A stretch of 35,297 nt of DNA from NCBI GenBank assembly GCA_039196715.1, contig JBCCUP010000048.1:1-35297 (forward strand), written 5' to 3'. The notes beneath the pieces are model-generated. The model was not told the origin of the DNA. It was given only the letters and a program-made list of their open reading frames with translations, and searched no databases. Shown piece after piece: positions 28,300 to 35,297 of the stretch (position 1 is its first letter; every line of letters begins with the position of its first letter). This stretch comes from Pseudomonadota bacterium (GTDB lineage Bacteria; Pseudomonadota; Gammaproteobacteria; CALCKW01). Both the position numbers and the translations under genes were made by a program.

Positions 28300-29277
28300 A
28301 TGTCCAAGCTGACGAAAGTTGCTGCCGGACTTGCCGTATTCGCGGCCACCACGCTGACGGCCCACGCCGAAAAGTGGGATATGCCCATGGCGTATTCAGC
28401 GACCAACTTCCACTCCGCCACGGGCGCCCAGTTTGCCGAGTGCGTGACCCTCGGCACAGGCGGTGCGCTCGAGATCACCACCCACCCCGGTGGCTCGCTG
28501 TACTCCGGCGCCGAGATCAAGCGCGCGATCCAGACCGGCCAGGTCAACATCGGCGAGCGCCTGCTCTCGGGTCACCAGAACGAAAACGCGCTCTTCGGGT
28601 TCGACTCGGTGCCGTTCCTCGCAACGTCCTTCGCCGATTCCGAGAAGCTCTGGGAAGTGGCCAAGGGCCCGCTCACCGAAGTGCTGAACGCCCAGAACCT
28701 GCACCTGCTGTACTCCGTGCCGTGGCCGGGCCAGGGCTTGTACTTCGATCGTGAAGTCAACACAACCGCCGACGCCAAAGGCATCAAGTTCCGTTCGTAC
28801 AACGCCGCCAGCGCGCGCATGGCCGAGCTCATGGGTATGTTGCCGGTGCAGATCGAAGCGGCCGAGATCAGCCAGGCTTTCGCCACCGGCGTGGCCCAGG
28901 GCATGGTGTCCTCCGGTTCGACCGGCTACGACCGCAAGGTCTGGGAGAGCCTGTCGCACTACTACTCCGCCGATGCCTGGATGCCGCGCAACTACGTGAT
29001 GGTCAACCTCGACGCGTGGAACGGCCTCGACGAAGGCACACAGAACGTGATCAACGGCTGTGCTGCCATCGCCGAATACGCCGGTGACTGGCGCTCCATC
29101 CAGTACACCGACTTCACGGTCAACGAACTCGCCAAGAACGGCATGGCCACCGGCCCGGTCAGCGACGCGCTCGGCGCCGAGCTGCGCGCCATCGGCGAGA
29201 CCATGACCGCCGAATGGCTTGAAGCCGCGGGCGATGCCGGCAAGGCCATCGTCGACGCCTTCAAAGCCGCGCAGTAA
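28300..29277 (+). CDS. dctP: TRAP transporter periplasmic substrate-binding protein
   Basis: 325 residues. A Sec signal peptide (basic KLTK, hydrophobic core, AHA cleavage near residue 23) precedes a DctP-family binding protein. The key arginine that grips the substrate carboxylate is Arg165 in GIKFRSYNAASARMAELMG, followed by the family segment IEAAEISQAFATGVAQGMVSSG. An AAGGAG ribosome-binding site lies 6-7 bases before the ATG. The ligand should be a carboxylate or similar anion, but its identity cannot be read. It is followed by a strong hairpin and then dctQ and dctM. The downstream enolase and ThDP enzymes suggest a hydroxy- or sugar acid. Confidence 0.92.
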   Translation: MSKLTKVAAGLAVFAATTLTAHAEKWDMPMAYSATNFHSATGAQFAECVTLGTGGALEITTHPGGSLYSGAEIKRAIQTGQVNIGERLLSGHQNENALFGFDSVPFLATSFADSEKLWEVAKGPLTEVLNAQNLHLLYSVPWPGQGLYFDREVNTTADAKGIKFRSYNAASARMAELMGMLPVQIEAAEISQAFATGVAQGMVSSGSTGYDRKVWESLSHYYSADAWMPRNYVMVNLDAWNGLDEGTQNVINGCAAIAEYAGDWRSIQYTDFTVNELAKNGMATGPVSDALGAELRAIGETMTAEWLEAAGDAGKAIVDAFKAAQ

Positions 29278-29290
29278 CACGCGCACCTCT

Positions 29291-29317
29291 CTCGCCCGGC
29301 GGTTCTCGCCGGGCGAG
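29291..29317 (+). other. Intercistronic hairpin between dctP and dctQ
   Basis: CTCGCCCGGCG and CGCCGGGCGAG form a perfect 11-bp stem with a 5-nt loop, 13 nt after the dctP stop. There is no T-run. Such hairpins commonly protect the upstream mRNA or partly terminate, giving more binding protein than permease. Confidence 0.75.
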
Positions 29318-29349
29318 CGTCCTCCCACCCCTGCACGGACACGGCACCT

Positions 29350-29877
29350 ATGGCCGCACTTGGTATATTGCGTACGACCCTCGACGGACTCTACCGCTAC
29401 GCGGGGTACCTCGCCGCGGTCTTCCTGATCCTGATTCTCGGCTTCGTCTCGATGCAGATGGTTGCGCGGTGGATTGGCGAGATCGTCACGGGCGCGCCTG
29501 ACATCACGGGCTACTGCATGGCCGCCGCGTCTTTCCTCGCGATGCCGTATGCGCTGAACAACGGCAGCCACATCCGGGTCAACCTGTTGCTCAATGCGCT
29601 CGGCGGCAAACGCTGGTGGGCGGAAATCTGGTGCTGGGCCATAGCGTCCTACCTGACCTTTCTCTTCGCGCGCTACGCGGTAAAGCTCACCTATGAGAGC
29701 TACCGCTTCAACGACATCAGCCAGGGGCAGGACGCCTGGCCGATCTGGATCCCACAGACGGCCATGGCCATCGGCACCGTGCTGCTGTTCATTTGCGCGC
29801 TGGACAACCTGATCACCGCGTTGTTCACCGGCAAGGACAACATCAAACCGGCCGTTGTCGACGTGAGCGCGGAGTAA
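29350..29877 (+). CDS. dctQ: TRAP transporter small permease
   Basis: 175-residue DctQ-type membrane protein with four hydrophobic helices: AGYLAAVFLILILGFVSMQMVAR, MAAASFLAMPYALNNGSHIRVNLLL, WCWAIASYLTFLFARYAV and TAMAIGTVLLFICALDNLITALF. PYALNNGSHIRVNLL and WIPQTAMAIG are family hallmarks. It forms the inner-membrane complex with DctM. It ends 4 nt before dctM. Confidence 0.9.
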   Translation: MAALGILRTTLDGLYRYAGYLAAVFLILILGFVSMQMVARWIGEIVTGAPDITGYCMAAASFLAMPYALNNGSHIRVNLLLNALGGKRWWAEIWCWAIASYLTFLFARYAVKLTYESYRFNDISQGQDAWPIWIPQTAMAIGTVLLFICALDNLITALFTGKDNIKPAVVDVSAE

Positions 29878-29881
29878 GACC

Positions 29882-31192
29882 GTGGAAGAAATCTACCTCG
29901 TCGCCATTTTCCTGTTCGTCCTCTTTCTGTTGCTCGGCACCGGCGTCTGGGTCGGGCTTGCGCTCTTTGGCGTCGCCTACCTCGGCCTGGAGATGTTCAC
30001 CTCGCGCCCCGCCGGAGACGCGATGCTGACACGCATCTGGACAGGCTCCTCGAGCTGGACACTGACCGCGCTGCCGCTCTTCATCTGGATGGGCGAAATC
30101 CTGTTCCGAAGCCGTCTGTCGCAGGACATGTTCCGCGGGCTGAGCCCCTGGATGCAACGCATGCCGGGCGGCCTCGTGCACGTGAACATCGTCGGCTGCA
30201 CGCTCTTTGCCGCGGTCTCGGGTTCGTCGGCTGCGACCCTGACCACCGTCGGCAAGATGTCGATCCCCGAGCTGCGCAAACGCCAGTACCCCGAATACAT
30301 CACCATCGGCACGCTGGCGGGGGCCGCGACCCTCGGTCTGATGATCCCGCCCTCGCTGACACTCATCGTCTACGGCGTGGCGGTCGAGCAGTCGATCACC
30401 AAGCTCTTCATGGCCGGTATCCTGCCCGGCATTGTGCTCGCGGGCCTCTTCATGGCCTACGTCGCGGGCTGGTCGTTCCTGCGCCCGAACGAGGTGCCGA
30501 CCATCTCCGACCGCATGAGCTTGCGCCAGAAGCTGCACGAAAGCCGCTTCCTGATCCCCGTGATCCTGCTGATCCTCGTCGTGATCGGCTCGATGTACGG
30601 CGGCTACGCCACCGCGACCGAGGCCGCCGCGATCGGCGTGGTCGGCGCGCTGGTCCTGGCCGCCGCTCAGGGATCACTCACGCCCCGGGCCTTCATCGAC
30701 AGTCTGCTCGGCGCCACGCGCACCTCGGCCATGATCGCGCTGATCCTCATGGGAGCGATTGCGCTGACCCTGGCGATGGGCTTTACCGGTTTGCCACGCG
30801 CGCTCGCCGAGTACATCGACAGCCTCGAGCTCTCGCGCTTCTCGCTGCTGATGGCGTTGATGCTGTTCTACATCGTGCTCGGCATGTTTCTCGACGGCAT
30901 TTCCTCGGTGGTGCTGACCATGGCGATCGTGCAACCGATGGTCGTCAACGCCGGCATCGACATGATCTGGTTCGGCATCTTCATCGTGATCGTCGTCGAA
31001 ATGGCGCAGATCACACCGCCGATCGGCTTCAACCTCTTCGTCATGCAGGGCATCACCGAACACGAGATGGGCTTCATCGCGAAATCGGCGTTGCCGTTGT
31101 TCCTGATCATGGTGCTGATGGTCTTCATCATGATCGCGGTGCCGGAGCTTGCGACCTACCTGCCAGACAGCATGCGCTCGCGACCGGGTTGA
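29882..31192 (+). CDS. dctM: TRAP transporter large permease
   Basis: 436 residues, DctM-type permease with about twelve helices. It drives sodium-coupled uptake of the ligand delivered by DctP. Recognisable segments are LPLFIWMGEIL, FAAVSGSSAATLTTVGKMSIPELRKR, GAATLGLMIPPSLTLIVYGV and MAQITPPIGFNLFVMQGI. The length is typical. Start is GTG 29882, with GGAG upstream and 4 nt after dctQ. Confidence 0.93.
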   Translation: MEEIYLVAIFLFVLFLLLGTGVWVGLALFGVAYLGLEMFTSRPAGDAMLTRIWTGSSSWTLTALPLFIWMGEILFRSRLSQDMFRGLSPWMQRMPGGLVHVNIVGCTLFAAVSGSSAATLTTVGKMSIPELRKRQYPEYITIGTLAGAATLGLMIPPSLTLIVYGVAVEQSITKLFMAGILPGIVLAGLFMAYVAGWSFLRPNEVPTISDRMSLRQKLHESRFLIPVILLILVVIGSMYGGYATATEAAAIGVVGALVLAAAQGSLTPRAFIDSLLGATRTSAMIALILMGAIALTLAMGFTGLPRALAEYIDSLELSRFSLLMALMLFYIVLGMFLDGISSVVLTMAIVQPMVVNAGIDMIWFGIFIVIVVEMAQITPPIGFNLFVMQGITEHEMGFIAKSALPLFLIMVLMVFIMIAVPELATYLPDSMRSRPG

Positions 31193-31199
31193 CGCCGCG

Positions 31200-32324
31200 A
31201 TGAGCCCGCACCGCATCGAGCACCTGCGCGTTCACCGCATTCTGATCCCGGCCAAGGCCGTGCATTCGCACGGCAGCGGCGACGTCGCCGGCATCCACGT
31301 CGCCGTCCTCGAGGTGACCACAGACACCGGCCTGACCGGGTGGGGCGAGGCCTCGCCCTGGCCGGTCTTCACCGGCACCGCCGAGGCCAACGCTGCCGCG
31401 CTCCACGTGCACCTGCGGCCGCACCTGATCGGACAGGACCCGATCGCTGTCGAACGGCACCTGACGATGGCCAACCGGGTGCTTGTCGGCCACCCGGAGG
31501 CCAAGGCGGCACTCGAAATGGCGCTGCTCGACCTCACAGGCCAGATCACGGGCCTGTCGGTGTCGGAGCTGCTCGGCGGGCGTCAGCGTGACGACATCGG
31601 CATGAGCTTCTCCGTTGCCAACCCGGACTTCGATGCCGACCTCGACGACATCGCCGCACTGTGGGCCGACGGCGTGCGCATCTTCAAGCTCAAGACCGGC
31701 TTTGCCGACCACGCCTTCGACCTCATGCGGTGCGAGCAACTCCGGTCGCTGTACGGCGACGAGATCGACATCCGCATCGACTACAACCAGGGCCTGCCGG
31801 CCTACGATGCGGTGCGCTGTATCCGCGACCTCGAGGCCTTTCGCCCGACCTTCGTCGAGCAACCGGTCAAATTGCACGAGCGCGAGGCACTCGCGGAAAT
31901 CACCCGCGCGGTCGACGTGCCGATCATGGCCGACGAGAGCGTGTTCGACCCGATCGGGGCGTTGTACGGTGCGACCCACCGGATCGCCGACATCTTCTCG
32001 TTGAAGATCATGAAATCCGGTGGCATTCGCCGTGCGCTCGAGGTCGCGGCGATCGCCCGCGCAGCCGGGATCGAGGTGTACGGCGGCTGCATGTTCGAAA
32101 CCGGCCTCGCCCACTCAGCCGGCGCGCACCTCATGGCGCTGGTGCCGGACCTGAAACTCGAGTGCGAGTTCTACATGGCCACCTACTACGCCGAGGCCGA
32201 CATCCTCACCACGCCGTTCCCGGTGCGCCACGGCCGTGTCCACGTTCCGACCGGCCCGGGCCTGGGTGTCGAGGTCAACCCCGACGCGCTCGCGCGCTAC
32301 GCCGTTGCGGAGGTGCTCGCATGA
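31200..32324 (+). CDS. Enolase-superfamily enzyme, muconate-lactonizing (MLE) subgroup
   Basis: 374 residues. The N-terminal capping domain ends in VSELLGGRQRDDI. The barrel carries K-x-K at the end of strand 2 (Lys163, Lys165 in FKLKTG), metal ligands Asp194 (DYNQ), Glu220 (VEQPV) and Asp245 (ADES), and a lysine on strand 6 (Lys269 in SLKIMKSGG). This K..D-E-D..K arrangement defines the MLE subgroup: cycloisomerases, dipeptide epimerases, o-succinylbenzoate synthases, hydroxyproline dehydratases. Epimerisation, dehydration or cycloisomerisation of the imported acid is expected. The specific reaction is unknown. It starts 7 nt after dctM and overlaps the ThDP gene by 4 nt. Confidence 0.88.
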   Translation: MSPHRIEHLRVHRILIPAKAVHSHGSGDVAGIHVAVLEVTTDTGLTGWGEASPWPVFTGTAEANAAALHVHLRPHLIGQDPIAVERHLTMANRVLVGHPEAKAALEMALLDLTGQITGLSVSELLGGRQRDDIGMSFSVANPDFDADLDDIAALWADGVRIFKLKTGFADHAFDLMRCEQLRSLYGDEIDIRIDYNQGLPAYDAVRCIRDLEAFRPTFVEQPVKLHEREALAEITRAVDVPIMADESVFDPIGALYGATHRIADIFSLKIMKSGGIRRALEVAAIARAAGIEVYGGCMFETGLAHSAGAHLMALVPDLKLECEFYMATYYAEADILTTPFPVRHGRVHVPTGPGLGVEVNPDALARYAVAEVLA

Positions 32325-34051
32325 GCGCCGCATCGCCCGAGATGACCGGCGGCCAGATCCTGCTGAAGATGCTCGAGTTGCACGGCGTCAAGCACGTGTT
32401 CGGGCTGCCGGGCGAGACCACCATCGGCTGGTACGAGGGTTGGCGCGCGCACTCCGACATCGAGTACGTGCTCACCCGGGACGAGCGTACAGCGGCCTTT
32501 GCCGCCGAGGCTTACGCCAAGGTCACCGGCCGCCCGGCGGTGCTCGAAGCGCCGAGCCCGGGCGTGACCCATTGCACGCCCGGCATCACCGAGGCCTTCC
32601 TGAGCTCGGTGCCGGTGATCTTCTTCAGCTCTGACATCCCGATCAACCAGGACAAACGCCACGGCCTGACCGGCGTCGACCAGACCGCGCTGTACCAGAG
32701 CATCTGCAAGGAGTCGTTCCTGCTGACCCGGCCCGCCGAAATCCCGTTCCTGCTGCGCCGGGCCTTTCGCGTCGCGACCTCGGGCCGCCCGGCGCCGGTC
32801 CACATCCGGGTGCCGATCAACGTGTTCCGCGAAACTACCGCGGTCGACGACCTGTACGCCGAACCGCAATACAGCCACTACCCCGCGCACCGGCCGGTGG
32901 CCGACCACACGGCGCTGCGCACCGCCATCGACGTGCTGTTGGCCGCGAAACGGCCGGTGCTGGTGTGCGGTCAGGGTGCGCTGATTTCGCAGGCGACCGA
33001 CGCGGTGCTCGCGCTGGCCGAGACGCTGCAGATCCCGGTCGCGACCACCACGCCCGGCAAGGGCACGGTGCCCGAAACCCACCCGCTGGCACTGCGCGTC
33101 ATTGGCGCGCGCGGCGGGATGGCCTACGCCAACGCCTACGTGCGCGAGGCGGACGTGGTGTTCTTCATCGGCACCAACACCGACTCCAGCTCGACCAACC
33201 ACTGGACCCTCTACGGCGACCCGCGCGACACCACCTTCCTGCACCTCGACATTGCCGAGGCGCACGTGGGCAACAACTTCCCCGTGGCGGTGAGTCTGGT
33301 GGGCGATGCACGCGCGAGTCTCGCCTACCTGCTCGAACTGATACACGCCGAGCACCCGGCGCTGTCCCGCCCGGCGCTCGACCTCAGCGCGGTCAAGCAG
33401 GACGCCCTGGACGCGGTGTTCTACGCCAACACACCGATGCCAGAGGGCACCGTGTCGCCAGTCAAGCTGACACAGGCGCTCGACGTGCAGTTGCCGCCGA
33501 ACGCGGTGGTGACCGCCGAACCCGGCGTCGCGGCGATCTACCCATCGGCCTTGCTCTCGGTGCGCGAAGCCGGGCGGCGCTACCTGACCAACTACTCGAT
33601 GGGCGCGCTCGGCTACTCGGTGCCGGCGGGGCTCGGTGCGCTGTACGCGGGGGACGGGCCTGTGGTGTCGCTGACGGGTGACGGCTCCTTTGGCTTCGTG
33701 ATCGGCGACCTCGAGACCATCAAGCGTTCGGGCCGAAACATCACCATCATCCTGACGCGCAACGACACCTTTGGCTGGATCCGCGGCGAGGCGATCCTGC
33801 TCGACGAATCGGACGAACCCTGGTCGACCGACTTCGGCGGGGTCGACTACTGCCAGGTCGCGGCGGCCTTCGGTTTTACGGTCGCGCGGATCACTACTGA
33901 AGACCAGATCGAATCCACGCTCGCAGCGGCACTCGCCCATCACGGCGCAAGCTTCATCGAAATGCGTGTGCCCTCACAAGATGAAATCGTGCCCTTCGTG
34001 CCCCCCTGGGTCGAAGCGGCCAAGGCCAAGGGCCTGCCGTACTTCGAGTAA
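32321..34051 (+). CDS. Thiamine diphosphate-dependent enzyme, acetolactate synthase-like
   Basis: 576 residues with three ThDP domains. The Pyr domain has FGLPGE (27-32) and catalytic Glu55 in TRDERTAAFAAEAYAKVTG. A central Rossmann-like domain spans about 195-340. The PP domain has the ThDP-Mg motif from GDGSFGFV (453-460) to RND (480-482). It is close to acetolactate synthase, oxo-acid decarboxylases and C-C hydrolases such as IolD; the activity cannot be chosen by eye. No ilvN is adjacent, and the coupling to an MLE-type enzyme and TRAP transporter argues for a catabolic 2-oxo-acid decarboxylase or C-C lyase. It starts with an ATGA overlap. The repeat array begins 3 nt after the stop. Confidence 0.87.
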   Translation: MSAASPEMTGGQILLKMLELHGVKHVFGLPGETTIGWYEGWRAHSDIEYVLTRDERTAAFAAEAYAKVTGRPAVLEAPSPGVTHCTPGITEAFLSSVPVIFFSSDIPINQDKRHGLTGVDQTALYQSICKESFLLTRPAEIPFLLRRAFRVATSGRPAPVHIRVPINVFRETTAVDDLYAEPQYSHYPAHRPVADHTALRTAIDVLLAAKRPVLVCGQGALISQATDAVLALAETLQIPVATTTPGKGTVPETHPLALRVIGARGGMAYANAYVREADVVFFIGTNTDSSSTNHWTLYGDPRDTTFLHLDIAEAHVGNNFPVAVSLVGDARASLAYLLELIHAEHPALSRPALDLSAVKQDALDAVFYANTPMPEGTVSPVKLTQALDVQLPPNAVVTAEPGVAAIYPSALLSVREAGRRYLTNYSMGALGYSVPAGLGALYAGDGPVVSLTGDGSFGFVIGDLETIKRSGRNITIILTRNDTFGWIRGEAILLDESDEPWSTDFGGVDYCQVAAAFGFTVARITTEDQIESTLAAALAHHGASFIEMRVPSQDEIVPFVPPWVEAAKAKGLPYFE

Positions 34052-34054
34052 ATG

Positions 34055-35199
34055 GCATCACACTGCGACCACCCCACTCCCCCGTGGGAGCTGCGTCCTT
34101 GTCGGGCCGTGCAGGCCCAGCAAGACGGGGCGAAGAACCCAACACCGCATTCGCGCCTACTCGCTGGCGCGAGGTAGACGCTCCCACAAGGATCGGGGCC
34201 ACATCACGCTCCGAACGCCTCCCACCCCAGTGGGAGCCGCGTCCTTTACGGGCCGCGCAGGCCCGGCAAGACGCAGCGAATGGCCCGGCTCCGTCTTCGC
34301 GCCTACTCGCTGGCGCGAAGTAGACGCTCCCACAGAGAAAGTGGCCACGCCACGTTCCAGGCACGCCACACCCCTGTGGGAGCTGCGTCCTTGACGGGCC
34401 GCGCAGGCCCGGCAAGACGCGGCGAAGAACCCAACACCGCATTCGCGCCTGCTCGCTTCCGCGAGGCAGACGCTCCCACACGGATCGGGGCGCATCACGC
34501 TCAAGCCGTCACACACCCCAGTGGGAGCCGCGTCCTTGTCGGGCCGTGCGGGCCCGGCAAGACGCGCCGAGTAAGCTGACACCGCATTCGCGCCTACTCG
34601 CTGGCGCGAGGTAGACGCTCCCACAGGGACCAGGGCTGCATCACGCTCAGAACGCCTCACACCCCTGTGGGAGCTGCGTCCTAGCCGGGCCGCGCAGGCC
34701 CGGCAAGACGCGGCGAATAAACTGACACCGCATTCGCACCTACTCGCTGGTGCGAGGTAGACGCTCCCACAGGGATCGGGGCCGCTTCACGCTTCGAGCA
34801 ACTCACGCCCCCGTGGGAGCTGCGTCCTTGCCGGGCCGTACAGGCCTGGCAAGACGCGGCGAATGAATCGACTTCGCATTCGCGCCTACTCGCTAACGCG
34901 AGGCAGACGCTCCCACAGGGACCAGGGCTGCATCACGCTCAACCTGCCACTCACCCCCGTGGGAGCCGCGTCCTTGTCGGGCCGTGCGGGCCCGGCAAGA
35001 CGCGGCGAATAAGCTGACACCGCATTCGCGCCTACTCGCTAACGCGAGGCAGACGCTCCCACAGGGATCGGGGCGCATCACGCTCAGGCTGTCACTCACC
35101 CCCGTGGGAGCTGCGTCCTTGCCGGGCAAAGCAGGCCCGGCGAGACGCGCCGAATAAGCTGGCACCGCATTCGCGCCTACTCGCTCACGCGAGGTAGAC
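34055..35199. repeat. Tandem array of eight ~146-bp structured repeats (REP/BIME-like)
   Basis: GTGGGAGC starts each unit at 34084, 34230, 34376, 34521, 34667, 34813, 34959 and 35104, a period of 145-146 bp. A unit is about 104 bp bounded by GTGGGAGC and GCTCCCAC, then about 42 bp of spacer (GGATCGGGG, CATCACGCTC). Inside it are a long hairpin (TTGCCGGGCC-GTGCA-GGCCCGGCAA), GCGAAT/ATTCGC, and a third hairpin GCGCC-TACTCGCT-GGCGC overlapping CTAC/GTAG. The eighth unit lacks its right arm. A leading spacer tail starts at 34055. No coding sense is seen; open frames crossing it are by-products of the repeats. Confidence 0.93.
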
Positions 35200-35297
35200 T
35201 CGACACGTTGGTCGCCTCCAGAACTGCATCGCAACTGACTCGGTCACCAACGGATCGGTTGTATTCGACTGGCCAAGCATCAGGCGAAGCCTACTGA
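35200..35297. other. Unassigned tail of the window
   Basis: The last 98 bases follow the truncated eighth repeat. They are less GC-rich than the array and show no gene start or stop context that I can support. Confidence 0.5.

Follow-up and report, generated by a model that had tools for sequence, protein, structure and literature searches.

At one end of the stretch of DNA analyzed here (the window, 35,297 nt in length, from contig C48 of the genome designated G000), a palindromic unit of about 146 bp is repeated in tandem. The locus raises the question of what such an array is, and whether it should be read as the product of a mobile element, as a structure retained by the cell, as a family of structured RNAs, or as the chance duplication of a spacer. 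The evidence presented below makes it very probable that this is a tandem REPIN/BIME array built of RAYT-associated, dispersed REPs, in which one heterodimeric REP pair and its spacer have been multiplied locally.

Geometry and Extent of the Array

The preliminary description had claimed an eight-unit tandem array, and TRF run on the window bears this out, with a period of 146 bp, 7.9 copies, and 81% matches at positions 34055–35199 (no strand assigned). The positions of the REP heads likewise give a period of 145–146 bp, with successive unit-to-unit spacings of 146, 146, 145, 146, 146, 146, and 145 bp. The window contains 15 copies of the head sequence, GTGGGAGC, in every instance within the array and with strict alternation between the + and – orientations; in shuffled windows, the mean count is 2.33 and the maximum is 6. 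Each unit consists of two unlike REPs in inverted orientation, together spanning 104 bp, and a 42-bp spacer, and pairwise identity among units is 78–91%. Within the pair, the left REP (+) has a long upper stem and the right REP (–) a short one. The REP pairs of the seven complete units are located at 34084–34187 (left REP 34084–34134, right REP 34150–34187), 34230–34333 (34230–34280 and 34296–34333), 34376–34479 (34376–34426 and 34442–34479), 34521–34624 (34521–34571 and 34587–34624), 34667–34770 (34667–34717 and 34733–34770), 34813–34916 (34813–34863 and 34879–34916), and 34959–35062 (34959–35009 and 35025–35062). Unit 8 (35104–35199) is incomplete, retaining the left REP (35104–35154, +) and ending before the right head. 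The inverted ends earlier ascribed to each 146-bp unit are present, but they enclose 104 bp, with the remaining 42 bp as spacer, and the eighth unit has no right head.

Upstream of the array is a gene for a thiamine-pyrophosphate (TPP)-dependent enzyme (32342–34051, + strand; PF02776/PF00205/PF02775), the start of which was set by a crude coding caller. It is the last in a series of genes at 28300–34051, with the array at its end, encoding a TRAP transporter (DctP, DctQ, DctM), an enolase-superfamily enzyme, and the TPP-dependent enzyme, a probable catabolic operon. Among relatives, the G001 match to the TPP-dependent enzyme spans residues 1–411 only, and the nearest homolog in G002 is 36% identical. 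The TAA stop codon of this gene is at 34049–34051, so that a start of the array 3 nt past the stop, as first described, holds for the phase of the repeat, but the first REP head is encountered only at 34084.

Toward the other end, the 105 bases at 35095–35199 are identical to positions 1–105 of contig C54, including the peculiarities of unit 8. The C54 array comprises approximately 3.4 units counting the shared unit 8; past that unit come two complete ones and, last, a left REP, and beyond the array lies a convergent gene for an FAD-dependent oxidoreductase. The array thus probably continues from C48 into C54, with about ten full units in total; alternatively, these are two separate arrays which have one recent unit in common. 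The window's terminal 98 bases (35200–35297) have no other occurrence in the assembly and a G+C content of 56%, vs. 68%. If the array does run into C54, this tail is likely to be an assembly branch (misjoin) or a strain variant.

This placement bears on the reading that the array, whatever its mobile origin in the past, is now kept for use by the cell, with its hairpins blocking exonucleases, attenuating transcription between convergent genes, or serving as a gyrase or IHF site. Roles at mRNA 3′ ends and in gyrase and IHF binding are on record for the REPs of Escherichia coli. The start of the array phase 3 nt past the stop codon of the TPP enzyme gene is in keeping with such a use, as are the stability of the folds and, if C48 and C54 join, the position of the array between the convergent TPP enzyme and FAD-dependent oxidoreductase genes. 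However, intrinsic terminators with a T-run number 2, compared with 0.8 in shuffles, and neither site is a REP. Additionally, the same REPs form arrays at many unrelated loci, as expected for a dispersing element, and two genomes of the genus manage without them. We regard retention for cellular use as unlikely.

The REP Element and Its Fold

The REP is laid out as a GTGG head, the dinucleotide GA, a 7-bp lower stem starting with GC, an unpaired C (position 14), then at least 5 bp of upper stem (more in the left REPs of the window array), a loop of 3–5 nt, a return stem ending in GC, and a GAA tail. REP copies were gathered as every GTGGGAGC site in the sampled loci of G000, and all collected copies have the GTGG-GA-stem arrangement, the head itself being the search key. 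Some REPs at four loci (L048, L050, L145, and L201) have an extra insert of ∼14 bases, of the GGGGGGCCCGCCTAGG type, ahead of the tail and may represent another hairpin variant within the family. At two other sites (C132, L038, position 5995; C44, L139, position 711), near-identical sequences beginning with GTGTATGGACTCCTCCCCGTTTGCAAGACAAGG directly follow the GTGGGAGC head, a pattern that would fit the entry of an insertion sequence into a REP.

The cloverleaf-like fold with hairpins that was noted initially is supported by calculation. For the 104 nt of unit 5 as single-stranded DNA, a three-hairpin cloverleaf is predicted on either strand, with free energies of −34.8 and −34.2 kcal/mol for the two strands (DNA parameters; z ∼ −5.8). 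This shape arises because two different REPs share the head and tail in inverted order, such that the two heads pair with each other, as do the two tails, and each of the differing stems forms a hairpin by itself. The closing stem of the cloverleaf is nearly invariant and contributes no evidence of covariation.

For the individual hairpins, covariation was assessed in a set covering 48–67 distinct REPs from G000, picked by head and tail and not by stem; pairs 7–34 and 8–33, which overlap the search key, were left out as evidence. Among 48 distinct 37-mers, 96.0% of the cells are paired (69.0% in shuffles), double changes occupy 149 cells (47 in shuffles), and the covariation score is 0.668, compared with 0.182 in shuffles and at most 0.147 in slid controls. 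Double changes occur at 10 of the 12 stem pairs, and pair 15–27, for instance, is found as C-G (22 REPs), G-C (18), and U-A (6), while the unpaired base at position 14 is C in 66 of 67 REPs. The REP hairpin fold is under selection, as had been suggested from the window; in the distinct copies analyzed, the covariation of the REP hairpins is strong and well above that of both the shuffled and the slid controls.

The window array alone provides thin evidence in this respect, with one true double change. Two compensatory changes between units had been proposed, and that in unit 3 stands: CTAC/GTAG becomes CTGC/GCAG in the stem of the right REP, an A-T to G-C replacement at columns 76/92, which recurs in unit 3 of C54. 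The change in unit 5 does not, being situated in an alternative stem, GCGCC/GGCGC, which is not conserved (in 4 of 10 units, the two inner pairs do not form) and was rejected; in the REP fold, one of the two altered bases is in the loop, and the other turns a G-C pair into G-U.

Strong folding and covariation could also be produced by a structured small-RNA family or a cloverleaf RNA element, and some stem changes do lead to G-U on the REP strand. Rfam, however, has no match at gathering level, a tRNA scan was empty, and no sigma-70-like promoter is found within the array. Moreover, the covariation supports individual REP hairpins and not the cloverleaf, the closing stem of which hardly varies. 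A structured RNA is therefore a very improbable reading of the array.

Dispersal of the REPs in the Genome

A count of the unit across the genome had been proposed, and for the REP the outcome is a dispersed element. In the 4.95-Mb assembly, the pattern of a head followed by a tail at the distance seen in REPs has 183 matches, compared with 14 for a reversed-pattern control, and the corresponding counts in relatives from the same genus are near control. A covariance model of the REP has at least 143 matches in G000, where scoring was limited to 150 candidates, 47 in G001, 1 in G003, and 0 in G002. When coding DNA was predicted with a crude codon-based script, nearly all REP heads in the sampled loci (138 of 139) fell outside it. 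TRF identified tandem arrays at ∼25 loci of G000, with periods of ∼127–178 bp and a spacer particular to each, and in most of these other arrays inverted REP pairs also alternate between the two orientations.

The complete 146-bp unit, by comparison, was found in this genome only at C48 and C54. This confinement could be taken to indicate that some arbitrary palindromic spacer was simply duplicated in place, with no origin in a mobile element. A single local duplication, with no other copy in related genomes, had been named in the preliminary description as an outcome that would count against its reading. With respect to the REPs, that explanation is refuted: both REPs of the unit are members of a dispersed family, with at least 183 copies, whose stems covary and to which a RAYT gene is linked. 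We consider it highly unlikely as an account of the locus; it stands only for the mode of the last amplification step. Since the REP is dispersed and the 146-bp unit is not, the unit itself represents a local amplification, and the array may owe nothing to transposition after its first copy.

At most of the loci examined, including those on C17, C41, C54, C57, C63, C74, C83, C95, C105, C120, and C136, a contig ends within about 200 bp of the REP array. The arrays are apparently a main reason for the breaks in the assembly, and because most arrays are at contig ends, copy numbers taken from it are lower bounds. Searches of plasmid and phage collections returned no similar DNA. An integron attC array, with sites separated by gene cassettes, was considered as an identity, and on cassette content the array does not fit it, as the 146-bp units contain no gene and the arrays are dispersed.

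The Associated RAYT Gene

A link to a RAYT transposase had been raised as one possibility, and it is supported: the genome has a single RAYT gene (C13:54992–55444), which is flanked by REPs and co-occurs with them in the genus. The protein matches the profile NF047646 with 117.9 bits (NCBIfam cut-off, 80) and the solved structure of E. coli TnpAREP (4er8) with an E-value of 2.2e-9. It retains the catalytic residues H65-V-H67 and Y119, the latter within a conserved ARYI motif and aligned to E. coli Y115 (numbering derived from the alignment). Within 400 bp of the gene there are four REP heads of the same family upstream and three downstream; these adjoining REPs differ in stem variant from those of the window array. 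A second gene with a Y1_Tnp domain (C1:122741–123073) was rejected as a RAYT, scoring 57.5 against the cut-off of 80 and carrying R-L-H instead of HxH, and no GTGGGAGC head is present in the 6-kb stretch around it. The second Y1-like protein (C1; L049, 2175–3107, minus strand) is 310 aa long and has a DnaA-like C-terminus.

RAYT genes are present in G000 and G001 and absent from G002 and G003; the two genomes with a RAYT are the REP-rich ones and the two without are essentially REP-free, in a comparison of four genomes, one of which is 79% complete. One RAYT of G001 (L053/L055) is likewise flanked by REPs of the same family. G001 itself matches the MAG CALDHJ, from an uncultured member of the Granulosicoccaceae, and this gives an approximate placement of the organism. 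Beyond the genus, RAYTs with ∼43–59% identity occur in Pseudomonas, Thauera, Thiobacillus, and others. Of 37 RAYT loci examined from various genera, 25 have GT(A/G)GGAGC heads both upstream and downstream at distances of up to 400 bp, and the density of these heads is 5.7 per kb near the gene and 0.5 per kb far from it.

Comparison With Known REP Systems

By sequence, the REPs described here make up a new family of the GT(A/G)G-GA class. They resemble the REPINs of Pseudomonas (P. putida TGTGGGAGCGGGC–TGCCCGCGAA; GTAG-1 class) in the GT(A/G)G head, the GA before the stem, the GAA tail, a stem which opens and closes with GC, the inverted pairing, the extragenic location, the REP-flanked RAYT, and the tandem clusters that include flanking DNA (PMC2817692, PMC3116915, PMC3733652). 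The P. putida REP, TGTGGGAGCGGGCgTGCCCGCGAA, has the GTGG-GA head and GAA tail, and the GA insertion has been reported as peculiar to the REPs of Pseudomonas and Xanthomonas (PMC2817692). In contrast to the roughly 6-bp perfect stems of Pseudomonas REPINs, the stem here is at least 12 bp with a conserved unpaired C, stem length is often unequal within the REP pair of a unit, and arrays occur at ∼25 loci in one genome.

Long, irregular stems, alternating orientation, and long/short pairs are instead shared with the BIME-2/TnpAREP system of E. coli (group 2), where activity of TnpAREP requires an unpaired stem position (PMC8266576). The E. coli elements differ in that GTAG immediately adjoins the stem and an AA/GC mismatch is present, in place of the GTGG-GA and single unpaired C found here.

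An array this regular had been thought unusual for REP or BIME elements, a view that the comparison does not support. In P. fluorescens SBW25, REPINs form tandem clusters with flanking sequence, of up to four REPINs plus one REP, and there are arrays of 12 REPs (PMC3116915); GTAG families also have clusters repeated together with flanking DNA (PMC3733652). P. oleovorans DSM 1045 (L061) has head-to-tail inverted GTGGGAGC/GTAGGAGC REP pairs with a spacer, as in the window, although its unit is 114 bp and its stems are short and lack the unpaired C. There, at 1929–5159 of L061, tandem REPIN arrays that exceed the window array in size, with 8.3 and 14.7 copies, surround a RAYT gene.

Proposed Origin of the Array and Its Significance

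The REPs form a dispersed, extragenic family with covarying folds and with a RAYT that is both linked to them and co-occurring with them, and they are arrayed at many loci. In the mechanism proposed for the tandem REPIN/BIME array, the REP-bearing strand would fold during replication into a hairpin with an unpaired C, and the RAYT would read the GTGG head and irregular stem as single-stranded DNA. With its HxH-Tyr site, the enzyme would cut beside the REP, and it may in this way move inverted REP pairs to new extragenic sites. At the C48 locus, local duplication would then have amplified one long-stem/short-stem pair and its 42-bp spacer into a head-to-tail series, whether through RAYT-made circles, slippage, or unequal recombination, and the units would afterward have diverged to their present identity. 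The stems would be maintained by selection for RAYT recognition and element replication, with any cellular use being secondary. Presence of the complete unit at C48/C54 only is compatible with an array in which transposition may have had no part past the first copy.

A further and rather unlikely possibility is that the RAYT itself drives tandem growth, with circles of a REP pair and spacer reinserting beside the parent copy. Were this the case, it would explain why arrays, and not single pairs, dominate in G000, each of the ∼25 loci with its own period, and RAYTs would gain a direct amplification activity which is not yet demonstrated.

Taken as a tandem REPIN/BIME array, the locus and its RAYT are a well-made but ordinary example of the known REP/RAYT system, with a somewhat distinct REP architecture. 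The REP arrays appear to explain where the assembly of this genome breaks. The system is added from an uncultured lineage, the genus of which includes a Granulosicoccaceae MAG, and its REPs have an architecture between the Pseudomonas type, with its GTGG-GA head, and the E. coli type, with its long irregular stem. It thereby offers a useful natural comparison for the reading of an unpaired base by RAYTs and for the growth of REPIN arrays.
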